A DNA stretch of 64,000 nucleotides, from contig JAPOHD010000027.1 of assembly GCA_026671195.1 (NCBI GenBank), positions 1 through 64,000 of the forward strand, written 5' to 3'. Position numbers and translations under genes: made by a program. The DNA comes from Draconibacterium aestuarii. GTDB lineage: Bacteria; Bacteroidota; Bacteroidia; Bacteroidales; Prolixibacteraceae. Of the stretch, positions 56,556 through 64,000 are shown one piece after another (within the stretch, counting starts at the first letter, position 1; the number at the start of each line of letters is the position of its first letter). The notes below the pieces were generated by a model. That model saw only the letters and a list, made by a program, of their open reading frames with translations. It was not told where the DNA came from and did not search any database.

Positions 56556-57293
56556 TTATAAAGCAGTGGTTTTTTTATCAACTATCACGGCATTCTCCAT
56601 AATAACATCGTAAGCATAGCCCGCTCCAAAGTCTTTGTTAAGGAATATGGTTCCCTTAAAAGTCACCTCGTCGTTTACCGATGGAAGATCCTGGCTGGTT
56701 ATCGTAAGATCGAAGTTGTTGTTAAAGGACGATCCATCCTGAATGTGAATCCAGTTCTTTCCCATTATTTGTTTGTTCACCTTTACCACAATTCCTCTGA
56801 TTTCAATTTCCTTATTGCTGTAGTTCTCAGGATTTTCAAAAATTTGGGCAATTGTAATTTCGTTTCCGGCTTTTTCAAAAGAAACGGCACCGTCTTGTTT
56901 TGTCTCCGTTTTGCCCGAGTGTCCGGCAATTGTATTGTCGGCAGGGGGTGTTGAATGCCCCGCTATGGGATTTGTACTCACTGTGTTAATAAAATAAATC
57001 GTTTCAAAATCACGATCCAGTTCCTTACTGTGGAAATTGGTCATTTGCAGTTCGCTGTCGTAGTAATATGTATTGCCCACGGTTGCATCCATTTTTGAAA
57101 CAGCCACCCAACGCTCGGCAGAATTCTCGGAAACCCGAAGATAGGTGTATTGCGATGTTTGGATAACTTCATTTACCTCAAACGATTTCAGGTTTGAAAT
57201 AGATGGATTGCTTGCCGGTTGTCCGCTTTTATTTTTTACACAAGCACTCGAAAATAAAATTAGTACGATAAGTAATATTTGCTGTAATTTCAT
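56556..57293 (-). CDS. OB-fold lipoprotein at the end of the cytochrome operon
   Basis: A 245-aa lipoprotein (LFSSAC, Cys18). The first half (about 40-115) contains SQYTYLRVSENSAERWVAVS and TYYYDSELQMTNFHSKELDR, a small beta domain seen in lipoproteins of redox clusters. The linker (about 118-145) is polar with HSTPP and AGHS. The second half (about 150-240) is an OB-fold of the tRNA_anti-like type: VSFEKAGNEITIAQIFENPE, IEIRGIVVKVN, WIHIQDGS, VTFKGTIF. I do not know its function. Last gene of the five-gene minus-strand operon, 17 bases after the barrel gene; it may be a structural or cofactor-binding accessory. Confidence 0.65.
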   Translation of the reverse strand: MKLQQILLIVLILFSSACVKNKSGQPASNPSISNLKSFEVNEVIQTSQYTYLRVSENSAERWVAVSKMDATVGNTYYYDSELQMTNFHSKELDRDFETIYFINTVSTNPIAGHSTPPADNTIAGHSGKTETKQDGAVSFEKAGNEITIAQIFENPENYSNKEIEIRGIVVKVNKQIMGKNWIHIQDGSSFNNNFDLTITSQDLPSVNDEVTFKGTIFLNKDFGAGYAYDVIMENAVIVDKKTTAL

Positions 57294-57310
57294 TGAAAAT
57301 AATTTATGGT

Positions 57311-58936
57311 TTAAAATTTTCTTCTCAGGGTTAAATATAATCTATTATACATGTTTTCCTCCTGAAATGTAGCTTCAAAGTTAACAGATACATATAGCTT
57401 TTTGTTGAACCGGTAAGATAAATCGATCTCAGAAATGTGTTGTTTTAATTTTGAAGACGTATTTACATAGTTAAAATTAACCATTCGATAGTTCAGCATG
57501 GTAAATAGTTTGCCTTGAAAAAGGTCTTTTGACAGGCGTGCGCCATATACCTGCCCGTCGAGGTAGCTGGTTTGCATTAGATTTGCCGAAAGTGTAAGCG
57601 ATGCTTCTATTCCGGGAACCCGGGTGTAAGTTGTATAACCACGTAAAGTGTTGGTGTGACGGGCGTCTCCTTCCCGAAAACGCGTGCCGCCATCTACTCC
57701 GAGGTTTAGATATTTTACAGGACGGAAAGTTATCCGTCCCCGAAAACCCTGCCGGCTGGCCTGTTGAAGTATTTCATCGGTATAATTCCGGAATGTTTCG
57801 TAATAGATTACATTTTTGCGGTTGTCGTACGATCCAAAAAGTGATAGTTGACGCGATACCCGGTAACGAAGAGAAAGATACAATCCGGTTAAACTCAGCG
57901 TGTTTTGTGCCTCTCCGTTTTCAAGTGCATACAAATCGAGTTCGAAGGAAGAAAAAAACGATACATTTTTAAGTAAAGTATTGCTGTGCTGAAAATAAAC
58001 AAACCGGCGATCGGTATTTCCGTTATTTCGCTGCTCGAAAAAGGCCAGCGACGATTGCGCAAAACCATTTCCTGATTTTGTGTTGTGCCCGATGTAGGCT
58101 CCGTATTCAAGTAAATCAGGATTAAATCCGTAATCCATATAATCGGGGCGGGTGCCAACTACTGCTCCGGCGTAAAAATCGTTCCAGCTTTTTTGAAACT
58201 GCAGGCCGTCAACCGCGCCAACGTTTGCAATTCGCGGGTTGATTTTCCGGCCTGCCCACAACGATGTGTTCTTATTAAAATCGTATTGCAAAGCCAGGCT
58301 GTAAATTTTTAAAGCATTGTTCAGGTTTTCCTGAACTACGTCCCACTCATTTAATTTGTGTGAAAACGAAATATAGGTTTCGGCCGACAGTTTTGAGTTG
58401 GAAATGTTTTGTGACTGCATGGAAAATGTGTATCGAAACCGATGGTAATCAATATCGGTGGCATTCGAGAAGTTGGAGTACGAGGAGAGCGCTAATCGCC
58501 CGGTGACTTTACTTTTTAATTCAGGCCGGGTTTGCTCCGGTATTGTTGTTTTTAAAACCTGCTCATTCAGATCTTCATCAATGGTGGTTTGTTCTTGTGT
58601 TGGCGTGAGAATGGTATGTTCTGGGGATTGAATCCTGCCGATAATTTTATCGCCCACTTTAAATGTTAAATCCCCAATCGGATTACAAAGACACGAAATG
58701 GAAGAATGGTGTGTAACCAGCAAAGTAGGTATTAATGCGCTGTTTTGTTGAATAAAAAGCGTATCTCCGTTTTCAATTCCCTGGGTGGAGCTGAACTTCA
58801 CATAAATATTTTGTCCGCTTATATACGAAACCTCACCGCTTAATATATTGGTTACCTGTGCATTTAACTGAATAAATCCGAAGATCAACATTAATGACAG
58901 CAACAGTATCCTGCTATTTTGAATAGAGCTAGTCAT
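57311..58936 (-). CDS. Outer-membrane beta-barrel protein of the multihaem operon
   Basis: A 541-aa protein. Signal peptide (RILLLSLMLIFGFIQLNAQ, residues 9-27); a small N-terminal beta domain (about 28-112) with GQNIYVKFSSTQGIENGDTL and a CxC (Cys82, Cys84); a variable linker; and from about 140 a beta-barrel of alternating strands rich in Tyr, Arg and Asn (SLWAGRKINPRIANVGAVDG, YLSLRYRVSRQLSLFGSYDN), ending in LYLTLRRKF with the terminal Phe recognised by BAM. Its start overlaps the end of the 28-haem cytochrome gene by eight bases, so the two are translationally coupled. Not recognisably MtrB; a porin sheath for a cytochrome is an inference. Confidence 0.75.
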   Translation of the reverse strand: MTSSIQNSRILLLSLMLIFGFIQLNAQVTNILSGEVSYISGQNIYVKFSSTQGIENGDTLFIQQNSALIPTLLVTHHSSISCLCNPIGDLTFKVGDKIIGRIQSPEHTILTPTQEQTTIDEDLNEQVLKTTIPEQTRPELKSKVTGRLALSSYSNFSNATDIDYHRFRYTFSMQSQNISNSKLSAETYISFSHKLNEWDVVQENLNNALKIYSLALQYDFNKNTSLWAGRKINPRIANVGAVDGLQFQKSWNDFYAGAVVGTRPDYMDYGFNPDLLEYGAYIGHNTKSGNGFAQSSLAFFEQRNNGNTDRRFVYFQHSNTLLKNVSFFSSFELDLYALENGEAQNTLSLTGLYLSLRYRVSRQLSLFGSYDNRKNVIYYETFRNYTDEILQQASRQGFRGRITFRPVKYLNLGVDGGTRFREGDARHTNTLRGYTTYTRVPGIEASLTLSANLMQTSYLDGQVYGARLSKDLFQGKLFTMLNYRMVNFNYVNTSSKLKQHISEIDLSYRFNKKLYVSVNFEATFQEENMYNRLYLTLRRKF

Positions 58937-61052
58937 CTGCTATTCCCGTTGGGTGACAAGCCAGACAACTGGTACTGCTATAAATATAGTCTGCTACTTC
59001 GTTGTGTTTCGTATTCATATCGGTTTGATTATGCTCATGACAGGTTGTACAAGAGAATACGGAGTAGTTGCTTGGTTCTGTGTGGCATTCCGAACACGAA
59101 TTCCATCTGTCGAGATGTTTTCCTGAATATATCGGGAAATACTGGCTATCGTGGTCAAAAGTAGAAGGAGACCACGCACTTTCGTTGTGGCAGGTTTCGC
59201 AATCGGTTGAAAATTGAGCCACGGCATGGCTCGGATTTGTCGTATTGTTGTAATCGTTCGTATGGCATGCAAAGCAAGTATTGGAAGTGCCGGTATAATT
59301 TCCTGAATGACAGAGATAGCAATTGGCAGCAACTGCGGCATGGGCTCCGTTTAAAGCATAGTAATCGTTATGATTTGGGAATAACGCCGGGTCCCATTCC
59401 GGGCCGGTTGTGTGGCAATCCTCGCATTGAACTGCTATGCCAATGGCCGTATGGTTGGGATTGGTAGTGTTGTTGTATTGCGTTTTATGACATTCGGAGC
59501 ATAAGGTGGTAGTACCTGAATAACCCGAAGAATGGCAACCTGCACAGTCGGTGGAAGTATGAGCTCCTGTAAGTGCAAAATTGGTAGTGTTATGATCGAA
59601 GTTAGCAGCATCCCAGCTGTTAACCGTATGGCATTGCAGGCAATTGGTTGGAAATCCTTGTGCAACATGGTCTTTTGCTTCGTTATAGTTGGTTTGGTGG
59701 CAACTCAAACAATCCGGGTTGGCTGCCGAAGTTGTTCCCTGGTGGCAATCGGCGCATTGTCTGCCTGCATGTCCGCCATTCAACTCAAATCCGCTGCTTA
59801 CTGTGTGGTCAAAACTCGACGGGGCCCATTCGTTTTCAGTATGACAGGTTGTGCAATCGGTTGAAATACCTGCACTTACATGGTTGGGATGTGCAGCCTG
59901 GTTAAAATTAGTTGTATGGCAATAGTTGCAATCGGTGGAGGTTCCGGTATAGCCGTTTGTATGACAAGCCACGCATTCCGTTGCGATGTGGGCACCTTTT
60001 AAAGGAAAACCTGTGGTATTGTGGTTAAAAGCAGATTCTTCATTTCCGGTTGGGTGACAAACAAAACACGCGGTGCTGTTGTAAGAATAACCGGGAATTT
60101 CTTTATGGTGATCATCGGTTTCTGATTTATTGTGTTCGTGACAATCGGTACAACTAAATACCGAATAATTCCCGGGTTGGGTGTGGCAATCGGTGCACTT
60201 GTCCCATTCTCCATTGTGTTTCCCCGAGTAAATTGGGAACAGATTATCGTGGGTTCTGAAATCTGCCGGATTCCATCCTGGGTTGGTGGTGTGGCATTCC
60301 AGACAATTTGTTGAGAAAGCCGAATTTTGATGCGATGGATTTCTGGCCGTCAAATAATCATTTTGATGGCAGCTGTAACAATCGGCAGATAAAGGATCGG
60401 AAATACCCGATGTGTGACAAGCCGAACATTCATTTATTTTGTGACCCAAGGTTAAAGGGAAAAAATCGTGGTTTATTCCGGTGGCCGACCATTCATGGGC
60501 ATCAATTTTATGGCATTCAATACAGTCTGTTGAGAACCCGGTTTGTTGGTGATTCGGATTGGTTGTTGCAAGGTAGTCCTGGCGATGACAATCATTACAA
60601 TCCACTCCAAGAGGTTCAAATTCCAAACGCGATGCTGAAGTGTGGCAGGAATAGCAGTCGGCGTTGGCATGAGCTCCCAGCAATGGGAAACGGCCCATTT
60701 GGTGTAGCTCGGTAATGTTCGAAACGATCCATGATTTGGAATCGTGGCAACGTGCGCAATCCATTCCCACCGTTGTGTTGTGCATATCGGTATGACAATC
60801 GATACAACCGGTTTTGGCTTCCGAAAAAACCAACGAAGTGTGACAAGCTGTGCAGTTAGTGATCTCGTGCTCCCCTTCCAGTGCAAAATTGGTAGTGCTG
60901 TGGTTAAATTTTTCGGTTTTTACAAAATCCCATCCTGCGGTGGTGTGGCAATCCGAGCAATCCGGTTTCAGTTGTTCGCCATGTGGGTTTTCCTGTGCTG
61001 CTGCAACAAATACCAATATCAGAAATACAATATTTAATGGCAGGCTGCGCAT
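58929..61052 (-). CDS. 28-haem c-type cytochrome
   Basis: A 707-aa exported protein (signal peptide 1-20, ...LVFVAAAQ) with 28 CxxCH haem-binding motifs counted by eye from CSDCH at 32 to CLACH at 696, one per 24 residues on average. Many further His residues (HNTTNF, HPNH, GAH) could serve as distal ligands. Repeat units follow the pattern FDHNTT-NFALTGAHTSTDCAGCH. A cassette PIYSGKH...NYSVFSC...CHPTG occurs twice, at 273-336 and 640-703, showing internal duplication. It should work as an electron wire in the periplasm or at the outer membrane. It overlaps the 20-haem gene by 19 bases and the barrel gene by eight. Cytochrome maturation genes must lie elsewhere. Confidence 0.92.
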   Translation of the reverse strand: MRSLPLNIVFLILVFVAAAQENPHGEQLKPDCSDCHTTAGWDFVKTEKFNHSTTNFALEGEHEITNCTACHTSLVFSEAKTGCIDCHTDMHNTTVGMDCARCHDSKSWIVSNITELHQMGRFPLLGAHANADCYSCHTSASRLEFEPLGVDCNDCHRQDYLATTNPNHQQTGFSTDCIECHKIDAHEWSATGINHDFFPLTLGHKINECSACHTSGISDPLSADCYSCHQNDYLTARNPSHQNSAFSTNCLECHTTNPGWNPADFRTHDNLFPIYSGKHNGEWDKCTDCHTQPGNYSVFSCTDCHEHNKSETDDHHKEIPGYSYNSTACFVCHPTGNEESAFNHNTTGFPLKGAHIATECVACHTNGYTGTSTDCNYCHTTNFNQAAHPNHVSAGISTDCTTCHTENEWAPSSFDHTVSSGFELNGGHAGRQCADCHQGTTSAANPDCLSCHQTNYNEAKDHVAQGFPTNCLQCHTVNSWDAANFDHNTTNFALTGAHTSTDCAGCHSSGYSGTTTLCSECHKTQYNNTTNPNHTAIGIAVQCEDCHTTGPEWDPALFPNHNDYYALNGAHAAVAANCYLCHSGNYTGTSNTCFACHTNDYNNTTNPSHAVAQFSTDCETCHNESAWSPSTFDHDSQYFPIYSGKHLDRWNSCSECHTEPSNYSVFSCTTCHEHNQTDMNTKHNEVADYIYSSTSCLACHPTGIADD

Positions 61053-62620
61053 GTAATATCTTCAAATTTGTAAATGATATAGTTATGAATCAAACCGTCG
61101 GTTGGCTTGTGGCATTGTACGCAATCCAATCCAACATGTTCACCATCTAACTTAAAACGGGCATTGCTGTGATTAAATTCTTCAGGCTTCCAGTTGCTTG
61201 AAGTGTGGCAACGGCGGCATTCGGTTCTTTTGTTCACTTCAAATTGCTTAAAATGAGTGTCTTCATGACAGTCTTCACACGATGGTGAAAGGTTTGTGAA
61301 CTGTTGCGTCAGTGTTTGGTTTTGATCTGAAAAATGACAATTCCGGCAATTTATTTCTTTGTGTTTTCCCTCTAATTTAAACTTAGTCTGATTATGATCA
61401 AACTGAATTTCGCTCCAAACCGAGGTTGAATGACAACTTTTGCAATCATTTTCAGGAAGGTATTTTACAGCTAAAACATCTTTGTGAAAATTTTCGTGGC
61501 AATCGATACAACGTGTTCCTTTATTGGCAAAATTCCATCTGTTTTCTGTTTTGTGGCAAACAAAACAAGGCGTTGCCGTGTGCGAACCTTCCAGTGGAAA
61601 ATGTGTTCGCTTGTGTTCTTCGATTGTAAAGTTCGATGGAGAAAATCCCTTTACCGTGTGGCACTCCTTACAATCGGGCGAAATTCCTTTTTTCACAAAT
61701 TGTTGTTCATGATAATCCGAGTGACAATCGGTGCATCGTGTGTGTTTTAATGCTTTGGTCAAACTTGTTTTGTGGCAAGTTTTGCAATTTACGGACTGAT
61801 GTTTACCTAGCAGCGGAAAATCAGTTTGGTTATGGTTAAATCTGCTGATACTTTTTACCTCGTTAAACGAGAATTCGTTGTGACATTTCCGGCAATCGTT
61901 ACCAAATTTATTTTCATGTACATCTTTGTGGCAGCTGGTACAGCTCTCAAATTCAATTCCGGCAAACTGCTGAAATTCCTTCCCCGTCTTTTGAGAGGTT
62001 TTATGACAGGCAGCGCATTCGAGAGCTTTGTGTTTTCCGATTAATGCGAATTTGGTTGTACTGTGATTAAATCCTGTAGCCGGGCGGAAGGTATTCTGAT
62101 TGTGACAGGAAGTACAATTTGCCGAAAGTGTATTTTGGTGAAAATCAGTGTGACAAGCCAAACATTCAGTTCCAAGGCCTAAAAATGTTTCACCTTTTTT
62201 CTGCGAAATCTTTTCCTGAATCAAGGCTGATTTATGGCAATCAACACATGTTATTTTCCGGTGTTTTCCTTCCAGTTGATAGCCTGTTAAATTGTGGTCG
62301 AAACTTTCTTTGTCGAAACGGGTAATCTGAAAATCGCGTCCAAAATGTTCTCCATGGCATTCGGCGCATTTTTTCCCGTTTACTTCCGTCGATGCATGGT
62401 AACCTTCTTTTTTGTTGATGAGCTGCTGTATTTCGGTATGACACTCCAGGCATTTCGAAGTGGTTTCTTTTTCGCCCAGAATATGGCAACTGGTGCAGTT
62501 TTTCATCCCCTCCAAATGGGCGTGTGCACTGGATAATTCGCCGGGCGAAAGTTGCGAAAATACCTGAAGTGTGCTTATCAGGAATAAAACGAAAAGACAA
62601 TATCTTAGTCCCTTTCTCAA
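61034..62620 (-). CDS. 20-haem c-type cytochrome
   Basis: A 528-aa exported protein (signal peptide 1-23, ...STLQVFSQ) with 20 CxxCH motifs from CTSCH at 42 to CAACH at 524-528. The repeat of roughly 45-50 residues reads FDHNLTGYQLEGKHRKITC, FNHSTTKFALIGKHKALEC, FDHNQTKFKLEGKHKEINC, each followed by one or two CxxCH, i.e. a tandemly amplified cytochrome c3-like module. Lys-rich, in contrast to the more neutral and acidic 28-haem partner. The protein ends exactly at the last haem-binding His, and that stretch of DNA also encodes the first residues of the 28-haem cytochrome. The gene follows the ferredoxin-FAD gene by seven bases. Confidence 0.92.
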   Translation of the reverse strand: MRKGLRYCLFVLFLISTLQVFSQLSPGELSSAHAHLEGMKNCTSCHILGEKETTSKCLECHTEIQQLINKKEGYHASTEVNGKKCAECHGEHFGRDFQITRFDKESFDHNLTGYQLEGKHRKITCVDCHKSALIQEKISQKKGETFLGLGTECLACHTDFHQNTLSANCTSCHNQNTFRPATGFNHSTTKFALIGKHKALECAACHKTSQKTGKEFQQFAGIEFESCTSCHKDVHENKFGNDCRKCHNEFSFNEVKSISRFNHNQTDFPLLGKHQSVNCKTCHKTSLTKALKHTRCTDCHSDYHEQQFVKKGISPDCKECHTVKGFSPSNFTIEEHKRTHFPLEGSHTATPCFVCHKTENRWNFANKGTRCIDCHENFHKDVLAVKYLPENDCKSCHSTSVWSEIQFDHNQTKFKLEGKHKEINCRNCHFSDQNQTLTQQFTNLSPSCEDCHEDTHFKQFEVNKRTECRRCHTSSNWKPEEFNHSNARFKLDGEHVGLDCVQCHKPTDGLIHNYIIYKFEDITCAACH

Positions 62621-62627
62621 ATTATTT

Positions 62628-63980
62628 TTATTTTTTATGCGTTAAAATCGCTTCGCCAAATTTGGTGCTGATCTTTATTCCTGCTTTTTGGAGAAAGTCG
62701 GTAGGCAACTCACCTCCGGCAAAAATATACACCAAATCGTTTCCCAGTTTTAAATCACCTCCTGCTGCATTCAGTTGTAGCGTGATGCTGTTTTCTTCAA
62801 TCGAAATCAGGTTGGAATTAAGTACTACGCTAATTTTATTTTTCGAAATAGCTTCAATGATCTTTTCATTGTTTTTAGGTTTTAACCTCGAAAACTTATC
62901 CTTGCGGTAGGAGAGTGTTACTTCATTCTCATGCATTAGAAGCAGGGCAGATTCAATGGCAGAATCGCCGCCGCCAACCACAACGATTTTTTTGTTATGA
63001 ATAAGTTCCGGCTCCAGTAAACGATAGGCCACTTTTTCAGAATCTTCACGCGGAATTCCCAGTTTACGGGGAGTTCCGCGTCGGCCAATGGCAAGCAAAA
63101 CTTTCTGTGCTGAAAGCGTTTCGCCTGTTTTTATTTTAACGATAAAACCTCCGTCGGTAACTGTAATCTCTTCTGCTTTTTTCTTTTCCCGAATTTCAAT
63201 CTTATTTTTTTCCAGCACTTCAGTCCAAAGATCGAGTAGTTCTTTTTTATTGGTTTCGTACAATTTTGCTTTTCCGTGCAGCGGCAAATCCATGGGAGAG
63301 GTCATTACAATTTTTTGGCGGGGGAAGGTGTAAACCGTTCCTCCCAAAGTATCCTGTTCAAGGGTTATCGTTTTTAATCCCATTTTACGGGCTTGCAAGC
63401 TGGCCGAAATTCCTGCCGGTCCGGCGCCGATCACTACTAAATCGTATTCCGACTGATGTTTTGATTTTATTCCTTTTGCCAGATTTACAATGGCTTGTTT
63501 CCCCTGTTCAACGGCATTTTTTATGAGGCCCATTCCACCCATTTCGCCGGCAATAAAAATTCCGGGAACATTGCTTTCAAAATTCTGGTTGACATGTGGC
63601 AGATCAACACCTCGTTTTTCGGTGCCCATAAACAGCGAAATAGCCTGAGTAGGGCAGGCATGAAAACAGGCGCCATGACCAACACAGCGACTTGCATTTA
63701 TTACGGTGGCTTTTCCGTTCCGGATTCCAAGAATATCATGCTCGGGGCAAGCCAATATACAGGCGCCGCTTTTTATACACGAGTTTACATCCACCACAGG
63801 ATGAAGAGAAACCGGTTCGAACAGTCCCTCTTCTTTAGCCACTTTAATTTTCTCGTCAACTTGTTTTGATTCCTTTCTTTGTTTTCGGATATAAATCCAG
63901 AATACAACGAAAAGCAACAATCCAACGCTGCCGTAAATCATTATTTTATCGAGTTCAGCTCCCATATTTAAAATATCCAT
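62628..63980 (-). CDS. Membrane-anchored ferredoxin-FAD/NAD(P) oxidoreductase
   Basis: A 450-aa protein, first gene of the operon. One N-terminal membrane helix (about 14-30, YGSVGLLLFVVFWIYI) with a basic stretch after it, so the rest faces the cytosol. Two ferredoxin-like motifs follow, CIKSGACILACP (68-79) and CVGHGACFHACP (99-110). Then NVPGIFIAGEMGGMGLIKNA (137-156), a flavoprotein element, and a thioredoxin-reductase-like two-dinucleotide-fold part: FAD loop VVIGAGPAGIS (182-192) and NAD(P) loop IVVVGGGDSAIES (about 335-347). In each ferredoxin motif the second Cys is replaced (Ser71, His102). It could move electrons between NAD(P)H and a low-potential carrier feeding the cytochromes. 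The direction is unknown. Confidence 0.8.
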   Translation of the reverse strand: MDILNMGAELDKIMIYGSVGLLLFVVFWIYIRKQRKESKQVDEKIKVAKEEGLFEPVSLHPVVDVNSCIKSGACILACPEHDILGIRNGKATVINASRCVGHGACFHACPTQAISLFMGTEKRGVDLPHVNQNFESNVPGIFIAGEMGGMGLIKNAVEQGKQAIVNLAKGIKSKHQSEYDLVVIGAGPAGISASLQARKMGLKTITLEQDTLGGTVYTFPRQKIVMTSPMDLPLHGKAKLYETNKKELLDLWTEVLEKNKIEIREKKKAEEITVTDGGFIVKIKTGETLSAQKVLLAIGRRGTPRKLGIPREDSEKVAYRLLEPELIHNKKIVVVGGGDSAIESALLLMHENEVTLSYRKDKFSRLKPKNNEKIIEAISKNKISVVLNSNLISIEENSITLQLNAAGGDLKLGNDLVYIFAGGELPTDFLQKAGIKISTKFGEAILTHKK

Positions 63981-64000
63981 GTTGATCCGAAAAGTAATGC

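Follow-up and report, generated by a model that had tools for sequence, protein, structure and literature searches.

A conserved six-gene block of Draconibacterium aestuarii and its relatives, proposed as a trans-envelope electron conduit with a flavoprotein subunit

The first 64,000 nucleotides of a contig of Draconibacterium aestuarii (C20:1-64000, here called the window; full genome 6.37 Mb) end in a minus-strand operon that encodes an inner-membrane protein (cytB), a flavoprotein with a ferredoxin-like part (FeSFAD), two multihaem cytochromes (cyt20 and cytN), an outer-membrane barrel and a small lipoprotein-like protein (OBlip). The block is real and conserved and, as judged from sequence, most likely works like PCC3, a porin-cytochrome conduit (PCC) of other bacteria, with a new input module and a modular wire. 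We propose with moderate confidence that the six genes form a trans-envelope electron conduit of this kind with a built-in cytosolic flavoprotein of NAD(P)H type. An earlier note on this DNA had called it a Bacteroidota electron conduit; synteny, barrel width and family searches of the cytochromes support a conserved block fit for that role, whereas the inner-membrane component had been overlooked and the suggested role at metal surfaces is weakened.

Gene content and conservation of the block

Open reading frames (ORFs) were taken from the first ATG, GTG or TTG after a stop codon. All five genes previously described were recovered on the minus strand, and a recount returned the same 20 and 28 CxxCH motifs, gaps of 7 and 17 nt and overlaps of 19 and 8 nt. 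The 48 motifs are not a product of chance, since the remaining four reading frames of the whole window contain one CxxCH in total. The description as a five-gene operon had to be abandoned, as a sixth gene, cytB (63968-64837, minus strand; L025:3969-4838), crosses the window edge with its last 33 nt (63968-64000) inside. It encodes a 289-residue inner-membrane protein of di-haem b type, so that an inner-membrane part does exist just past the stretch in which the earlier note saw no inner-membrane quinol oxidase. The gene overlaps FeSFAD by 13 nt, given a FeSFAD start at 63980, a family-31 glycosidase gene lies 257 nt past cytB, and at the opposite end the next downstream gene is convergent; the operon is therefore cytB-FeSFAD-cyt20-cytN-barrel-OBlip, with cytB as its first gene.

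Conserved synteny, which the earlier note had suggested examining, is found in Bacteroidota and Ignavibacteria whether the block is approached from the barrel or from cytB. A scan of public genomes with the barrel found 84 relatives, and 80 loci were kept, with Draconibacterium, Maribellus, Mariniphaga, Prolixibacter, Labilibaculum, Lutibacter, Saprospiraceae, Melioribacteraceae and Ignavibacteria records among them. At 39 of the 41 barrel-found loci with at least 9.5 kb of upstream sequence, cytB, FeSFAD, cyt20 and cytN lie on the strand of the barrel. A profile search with cytB in 296 genomes of the phylum returned 32 matches, including that of the window itself. Of the remaining 31, the weak matches G157, G170 and G217 were set aside and the gene neighbourhoods of 28 were read. 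FeSFAD, cyt20 and the barrel accompany cytB at 24 of these 28 loci, 11 arranged as in the window (layout I) and 13 with FeSFAD after the barrel (layout II); L153 was counted as a full block though its cyt20 is in two ORFs, and L152 and L173, which end at contig ends, were counted as not full. Layout II barrels score down to 35 bits, some thus being remote, and the barrel-found and cytB-found sets share some genomes. At all 53 measurable loci the cyt20 ORF overlaps that of cytN by 19-25 nt. Both L154 and L164 carry strong cytB homologues; L164, which breaks off within cytB and has a 94-residue fragment of a barrel, gives the impression of decay.

The barrel is accessory: of 61 relatives 26 have it, namely 23 of the 37 in the genus (counting the genome of the window) and 3 of the 24 from other families of the order. 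The whole set is also carried by plasmid pEMTOL02 of Emticicia oligotrophica (L143, NC_018749.1; 100 kb, typed as non-mobilizable in PLSDB), where ccsA and all six genes stand in a row. A homologue of CcsA, a cytochrome c maturation protein, directly precedes cytB at four loci (L029, L064, L066 and L143), and the Emticicia plasmid CcsA used as a query gave matches at five other scanned loci: L029, L064 and L066, L111, where the homologue follows the block, and L155, where it is encoded on the opposite strand. The Draconibacterium aestuarii genome has two CcsA-family genes, with frames of about 1040 residues.

The cytochrome pair and the barrel

Haem motifs were counted in set A after identical proteins had been removed, leaving 74 cytN and 61 cyt20 sequences that are related by descent; the two cytochromes were assigned by best phmmer match, and a few loci give a second cytN-like gene. 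Set B was left out of the counts, its cyt20 having been chosen by haem number, and it includes a split cyt20 piece (L153) and an opposite-strand ORF (L158).

The first cytochrome, cyt20 (61034-62620, minus strand; 528 residues from a TTG start), is nearly fixed in size, with 20 motifs in 56 of the 61 ORFs, 23 in three, 18 in one and 10 in one. Besides its 20 motif histidines, exactly 20 further histidine columns are conserved in at least 90% of 48 alignment rows, which matches what 20 bis-histidine haems would require. It would be periplasmic, and we propose it as the wire that spans the periplasm.

The second cytochrome, cytN (58929-61052, minus strand; 707 residues and 28 CxxCH motifs in the window), varies widely in size and is proposed to thread the barrel and extend outward, placing it at least partly outside the cell. 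The 74 unique ORFs carry from 12 to 70 haem motifs, and in 68 of them the number is 1 modulo 3; the other six, kept in the count, are from L029, L052, L077 and L111, with two overlapping ORFs from L035. The protein is built from a ten-haem N-terminal part, triheme units of about 73 residues and a three-haem C-terminal cap, with internal repeats and 24.3-28.8 residues per haem. One spacing pattern of the N-terminal part is exact in 48 of 75 ORFs, and free histidines at least equal haem motifs in all 75 examined. At L160 and L161 (layout II) the barrel is preceded by a 10-CxxCH cytochrome, the size of this conserved N-terminal part, and a search of those stretches showed no long cytochrome.

Comparison of related loci indicates how the length changes. 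The cytN proteins of L027 (13 haems) and L039 (52 haems) are 91.5% identical over their shared 343 residues and differ by a single 939-residue block, and the other parts are similarly close (barrel 92%, FeSFAD 92%, cytB 90% and cyt20 85%). Those of L060 and L065 are one 73-residue, three-haem unit apart at 92% identity. Either gain or loss could account for such differences. The long forms contain units up to 99% identical, next-but-one units are more alike than neighbours in six of eight forms examined, and the L072 gene has DNA periods of 216 and 426 nt; the length of the wire therefore varies in tandem steps of triheme or hexahaem size. L027 (13) and L031 (28) are single-contig genomes, and L039 (52), L060, L065 and L072 are records of metagenome-assembled genomes (MAGs) or draft contigs; short-read assembly may collapse or misjoin cytN repeats.

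The triheme units of the window's own cytN are old. They are at most 54% identical, which rules out a recent expansion of this 28-haem gene, and a tandem-repeat finder reported only a 7-nt repeat there. The third unit (about residues 271-340) is most like the C-terminal cap (about 630-707; 54% identity), a pattern that would be expected if more units and a second cap had been added to a 13-haem protein that already ended in one.

The barrel protein (57311-58936, minus strand; 541 residues) ends in Phe, as had been noticed before, and this residue is kept in at least 90% of 70 alignment rows. Its AlphaFold2 model (70 sequences; predicted local distance difference test, pLDDT, 86.9; predicted template modelling score, pTM, 0.66) has an N-terminal beta domain (30-102), a low-confidence linker (106-136) and 22 predicted strands (143-540). 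By formula, 22 strands with an assumed shear of 24 give a backbone diameter of about 40 Å, against 47 Å at 26 strands, and such a barrel is not obviously too narrow for a cytochrome. The ten-haem N-terminal part of cytN, which has the same haem number as MtrA, may by analogy sit within it. Pfam includes a model of the MtrB family, MtrB_PioB. None of the 70 barrel members matched it at E 0.1 and no PDB MtrB chain was found at E 1, ruling out the MtrB family and agreeing with the earlier view that the barrel is not recognisably MtrB; the search against PDB sequences gave no matches at all. A fixed 20-haem cytochrome beside an open-ended one would amount to a ruler within the periplasm and free reach outside.

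The last gene, OBlip (56556-57293, minus strand; 245 residues), encodes a small lipoprotein-like protein that is optional, with a homologue at 27 of the 73 barrels that have at least 1 kb of downstream DNA. The OB fold previously assigned to it has weak support from Pfam matches that miss their cut-offs (tRNA_anti-like, E=0.0084; GW, E=0.0056), and the homologue on the Emticicia plasmid is annotated as a GW dipeptide domain-containing protein.

Electron entry, direction and alternatives

The window's cytB has five hydrophobic regions once overlapping peaks are merged by eye; the automatic segment count over-splits the protein, and the five-helix reading is taken from this one sequence. The third region contains H95 and H109, the fourth contains SG131-G135, and H262 and H276 are at the fifth. 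All four histidines are invariant in 49 alignment rows, two WxxxHx13H motifs and SGxxG are present in 48 of the 49, and none of 20,000 composition shuffles of cytB produced the two WxxxHx13H motifs. No Pfam or NCBIfam family scored above cut-off, and a profile search of the PDB gave no match at E 1. The protein nevertheless carries the inner-membrane signature published for PCC3 and PCC4, namely about 300 residues, five helices, SGXXG on transmembrane helix (TM) 4 and WX3HX13H on TM3 and TM5 (PMC5566968). Mean net charges of -0.65 for loop 1, +5.4 for loop 2 and +9.4 for loop 4 suggest that loops 2 and 4 are cytosolic, in which case H95/H262 would bind the inner haem b and H109/H276 the outer one.

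FeSFAD (62628-63980, minus strand; 450 residues) is a membrane-anchored, ferredoxin-like and FAD/NAD(P) oxidoreductase. Its single membrane helix, which the earlier note had recognised, is the one hydrophobic segment at residues 13-31 and is followed by basic residues, so the body of the protein is probably cytosolic. The C-terminal two-thirds are of YpdA/thioredoxin-reductase type (profile positions 174-439 match 7a7b, E 1.1e-41). In the ferredoxin part six cysteines are invariant in 58 of 58 rows, and both CxxCxxCxxxCP motifs (residues 68-110) are without their second cysteine, residue 71 being Ser (42 rows) or Thr (16) and residue 102 being His throughout. Fe-S sites with three cysteines or a histidine ligand have precedent, and these may accommodate 3Fe-4S clusters or clusters with a His ligand. 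No second full-length copy exists in the genome (789 bits at the locus, 76 for the next match). In layout I, FeSFAD lies 3' of cytB, and the median gap between the two genes over 47 measured loci is 3 nt.

Homologues of cytB (44-78 bits) are also found on five plasmids, of Alteromonas, Methylophaga, Bradyrhizobium, Spirosoma and Rhizorhabdus (L144, L145 and L184-L186), in modules that run from a 2Fe-2S protein through the cytB homologue (annotated "iron reductase") to a 7-CxxCH cytochrome. Four of the 2Fe-2S proteins are full-length, with FAD_binding_6, NAD_binding_1 and Fer2 domains, and belong to a family other than that of FeSFAD; the one from Bradyrhizobium is short (211 residues) and adjoins a transposase (L184). 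The occurrence of one cytB family with two unrelated NAD(P)H-type flavoproteins points to electron flow from flavoprotein to cytB, and it is mainly on this ground that we propose cytosolic NAD(P)H as the donor. On the Alteromonas macleodii plasmid (L144) the module stands just before hydrogenase and hydrogenase-maturation genes.

In the proposed route, NAD(P)H would reduce the FAD of FeSFAD, and its two unusual three-cysteine Fe-S sites would pass electrons to the cytosol-facing haem b of cytB (H95/H262). From there the electrons would pass through the membrane to the second haem b, on the periplasmic side (H109/H276), move on to cyt20 as a fixed-length ruler across the periplasm, and continue into cytN held in the 22-strand barrel, where triheme modules would carry them outward. 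Fe(III) or Mn(IV) minerals, humics, electrodes or partner cells are candidate acceptors, and disposal of excess reductant would be the likely benefit. More tentatively, the conduit could be wholly quinone-independent, with an NADPH oxidase-like pair feeding the 20-haem ruler and an outer section of up to 70 haems, its reach set by tandem gain or loss of triheme or hexahaem units and the set also being plasmid-borne; we regard this fuller version as possible rather than probable.

Several results weigh against the proposed conduit. Two of the 41 barrel-found loci (L082 and L104) have no cytB, and two of the 28 cytB-found ones (L154 and L164) have cytB without the block. Within the genus, 14 of 37 genomes lack the barrel, and pairwise identities of the four other genes correlate just moderately (Spearman 0.51-0.68). 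Among more divergent loci, only 22 of 29 cytB proteins have both full WxxxHx13H motifs, although two HX13H are present in 28, and cytB may contain a quinone site. The structural models are of limited help: that of cyt20 is weak (pTM 0.42), with a single fold-search match at E 3.9, and that of the barrel (pTM 0.66) returned generic barrels of usher, AlgE and OprD types as the best 50 of 926 Foldseek matches (query TM-score at most 0.42, target TM-score at most 0.53). Neither cytochrome has a lipobox, as judged by eye, or an export-tail family in the family searches. Emticicia is an aerobe, and carriage on its plasmid fits anaerobic electron disposal poorly.

The strongest alternative keeps the same conduit and feeds it with menaquinol, making cytB a quinol oxidase; FeSFAD would then serve as a regulator, as a second point of entry or as an outlet to NAD(P)+. 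The 13 of 28 loci in which FeSFAD follows the barrel instead of adjoining cytB (layout II) are in its favour. FeSFAD is, however, kept in both layouts, close behind cytB in layout I, and the cytB homologues of the five plasmids likewise adjoin an Fe-S or FAD/NAD reductase, so we consider a menaquinol feed rather unlikely.

Inward flow, in which Fe(II), Fe(0), a cathode or a partner cell would supply electrons that enter via the barrel and reduce cytosolic NAD(P)+, is less probable still. PCC3 has been described in Fe(II) oxidisers (PMC5566968), such pathways can run both ways according to the available text of PMC8258643, and the set is plasmid-borne in Emticicia, but reduction of NAD(P)+ with electrons at the level of Fe(II) is uphill and opposes the membrane potential, as established bioenergetics holds. 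The block is moreover present in both Prolixibacter bellariivorans (L064) and P. denitrificans (L066); among six Prolixibacter strains, Fe(0) was corroded by nitrate reducers only, and P. bellariivorans is non-corroding (PMC8368055). Its presence in corroding and non-corroding species alike rules out Fe(0) corrosion as the role of the block and weakens the metal surfaces suggested in the earlier note.

A haem array for charge storage or metal detoxification is very improbable: RND efflux system-like genes with their membrane-fusion protein, a cation-efflux protein and a heavy-metal-type small protein (assigned by eye; L025:7338-17587, C20 about 67.3-77.6 kb) lie upstream of the operon beyond the glycosidase gene, and some barrel-less plasmid modules are near copper or other metal genes, but storage would need neither a barrel, nor an inner-membrane di-haem b protein, nor a fixed 20-haem partner.

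The best-known Gram-negative conduits start at quinol. CymA does so in the Mtr pathway (PMC6295460). If NAD(P)H is where the present conduit begins, a quinone step would not be needed for many Bacteroidota and Ignavibacteria to rebalance their redox state by sending electrons outward, and the block suggests a route by which Bacteroidota electrons could reach extracellular targets. The fixed and variable cytochromes would also offer a natural test of what sets wire length, in which the periplasm should fix the 20-haem protein and leave the outer wire free; close relatives whose wires have 13, 28 and 52 haems, the remaining parts being similar, offer ready material for relating wire length to current or reach.

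Relation to known systems

Published systems are compared here by their descriptions in the openly available text of the papers cited. MtrCAB, MtoAB and PioAB share with the block a barrel and a multihaem cytochrome, but the present barrel has no MtrB-type Pfam or PDB match and the operon no CymA-type gene. Against the DmsE-type decahaem model cytN scores 31 bits and cyt20 42 bits, with a cut-off of 192, which places neither in the MtrA/DmsE family; the family searches likewise assigned neither to an unrelated soluble pathway. The Geobacter OmbB-OmaB-OmcB system has octahaem and dodecahaem cytochromes in place of 20 and 28 motifs, and a Geobacter-like porin has been reported in Ignavibacterium and Melioribacter (PMC6137239). 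By sequence, cyt20 also matches PDB 3ov0 (E 1.2e-4), the Geobacter nanowire cytochrome GSU1996. GSU1996 is built of triheme c7-type repeats and has 12 haems, compared with 20 in cyt20, and we know of no link between it and a barrel or a flavoprotein.

Within the Bacteroidota, the "Bacteroidetes_1" cluster from an anode combines multihaem cytochromes with a barrel and has its best matches in Bacteroidetes and Ignavibacteriae, but is described as six such cytochromes and one barrel in seven genes (PMC8258643). Putative novel PCCs have also been reported in Bacteroidetes lake MAGs (He et al. 2019, PMC6344600), and either set could include relatives of the block. Prolixibacteraceae have been named as part of the sludge inoculum in a paper on electrode biofilms. 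The operon is not the sole multihaem system of its genome, as four NapC/NrfH-family matches and a second cluster (G000:C65:162000-178500, L199) make clear. That cluster holds a CcsA-family gene, 4-, 6-, 19- and 7-CxxCH proteins, of which the 6-CxxCH protein has a NapC/NrfH-family match, a cytochrome b-like protein (by eye), a 304-residue possible outer-membrane protein and 1- and 6-CxxCH lipoprotein-like proteins; by description it may be akin to the anode cluster of six cytochromes and a barrel (PMC8258643).

NAD(P)H oxidases and ferric reductases combine a flavoprotein with a transmembrane HX13H di-haem b core, and the entry side may work in a similar way; both modules are present and co-conserved here, the flavoprotein being of YpdA/TrxR type. 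The barrel-less plasmid modules have in common with the block the cytB family and the arrangement of flavoprotein, cytB and cytochrome; they differ in flavoprotein family and in their small cytochrome, and no barrel is annotated beside them. PCC4 shares the inner-membrane signature, and its subgroup II has an Fe-S protein gene beside it (PMC5566968). It is described with three periplasmic cytochromes and no extracellular one, and its Fe-S gene is of pfam13247, which the text does not describe as an FAD/NAD(P) protein.

Variation in haem number is itself familiar from large cytochromes. It was noted for PCC3 (PMC5566968) and in Gallionellaceae, where the variable PCC3 cytochrome has 10-35 haems and the second 21, 24 or 27 (PMC10734462); gain or loss of haems in pairs or multiples was suggested for Burkholderiales and Chloroflexi (PMC7399161), and a paper on Geobacter cytochrome evolution describes duplication of whole small cytochromes. 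In the open literature searched, which leaves out most subscription journals, we found no description of a set with an Fe-S-FAD subunit or with haem numbers that change in threes, and the available portions of PMC6295460 and PMC8478452 name Bacteroidetes or Ignavibacteria without this gene set. To that extent the earlier statement that no described system has this gene set stands for the full set; PCC3, however, already combines a porin and a pair of giant cytochromes with this inner-membrane signature (PMC5566968).

The nearest known system is PCC3, found in Proteobacteria that include Fe(II) oxidisers (He et al. 2017, PMC5566968). In the kinds of gene it corresponds to the block, with a porin, a variable giant cytochrome, a steadier second one and an inner-membrane protein. 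Median haem numbers are 34 for its variable cytochrome and 21 for the second. The latter is periplasmic, with 21-27 haems suggested to be enough to span the periplasm (PMC10734462), and compares with 20 motifs in 56 of 61 cyt20 proteins, for which we propose the same location. Residues per haem are 22-39 in PCC3 and 24.3-28.8 in cytN. He et al. compared the inner-membrane protein of PCC3 and PCC4 with the di-haem b core that ferric reductases and NAD(P)H oxidases have, as does the bc1 complex, and proposed that of PCC3 as a quinol oxidase (PMC5566968). Unlike PCC3 as described, cytN changes its haem number in threes, and the barrel is predicted to have 22 strands against up to 42 predicted for PCC3 porins. 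The hosts differ as well, being Bacteroidota and Ignavibacteria here, and the block sometimes adds a lipoprotein. The gene kinds of PCC3, a porin, extracellular and periplasmic multihaem cytochromes and an inner-membrane protein, stand together here with FeSFAD added, and this Fe-S-FAD-NAD(P) subunit is, on sequence grounds, the new element relative to PCC3 as described.

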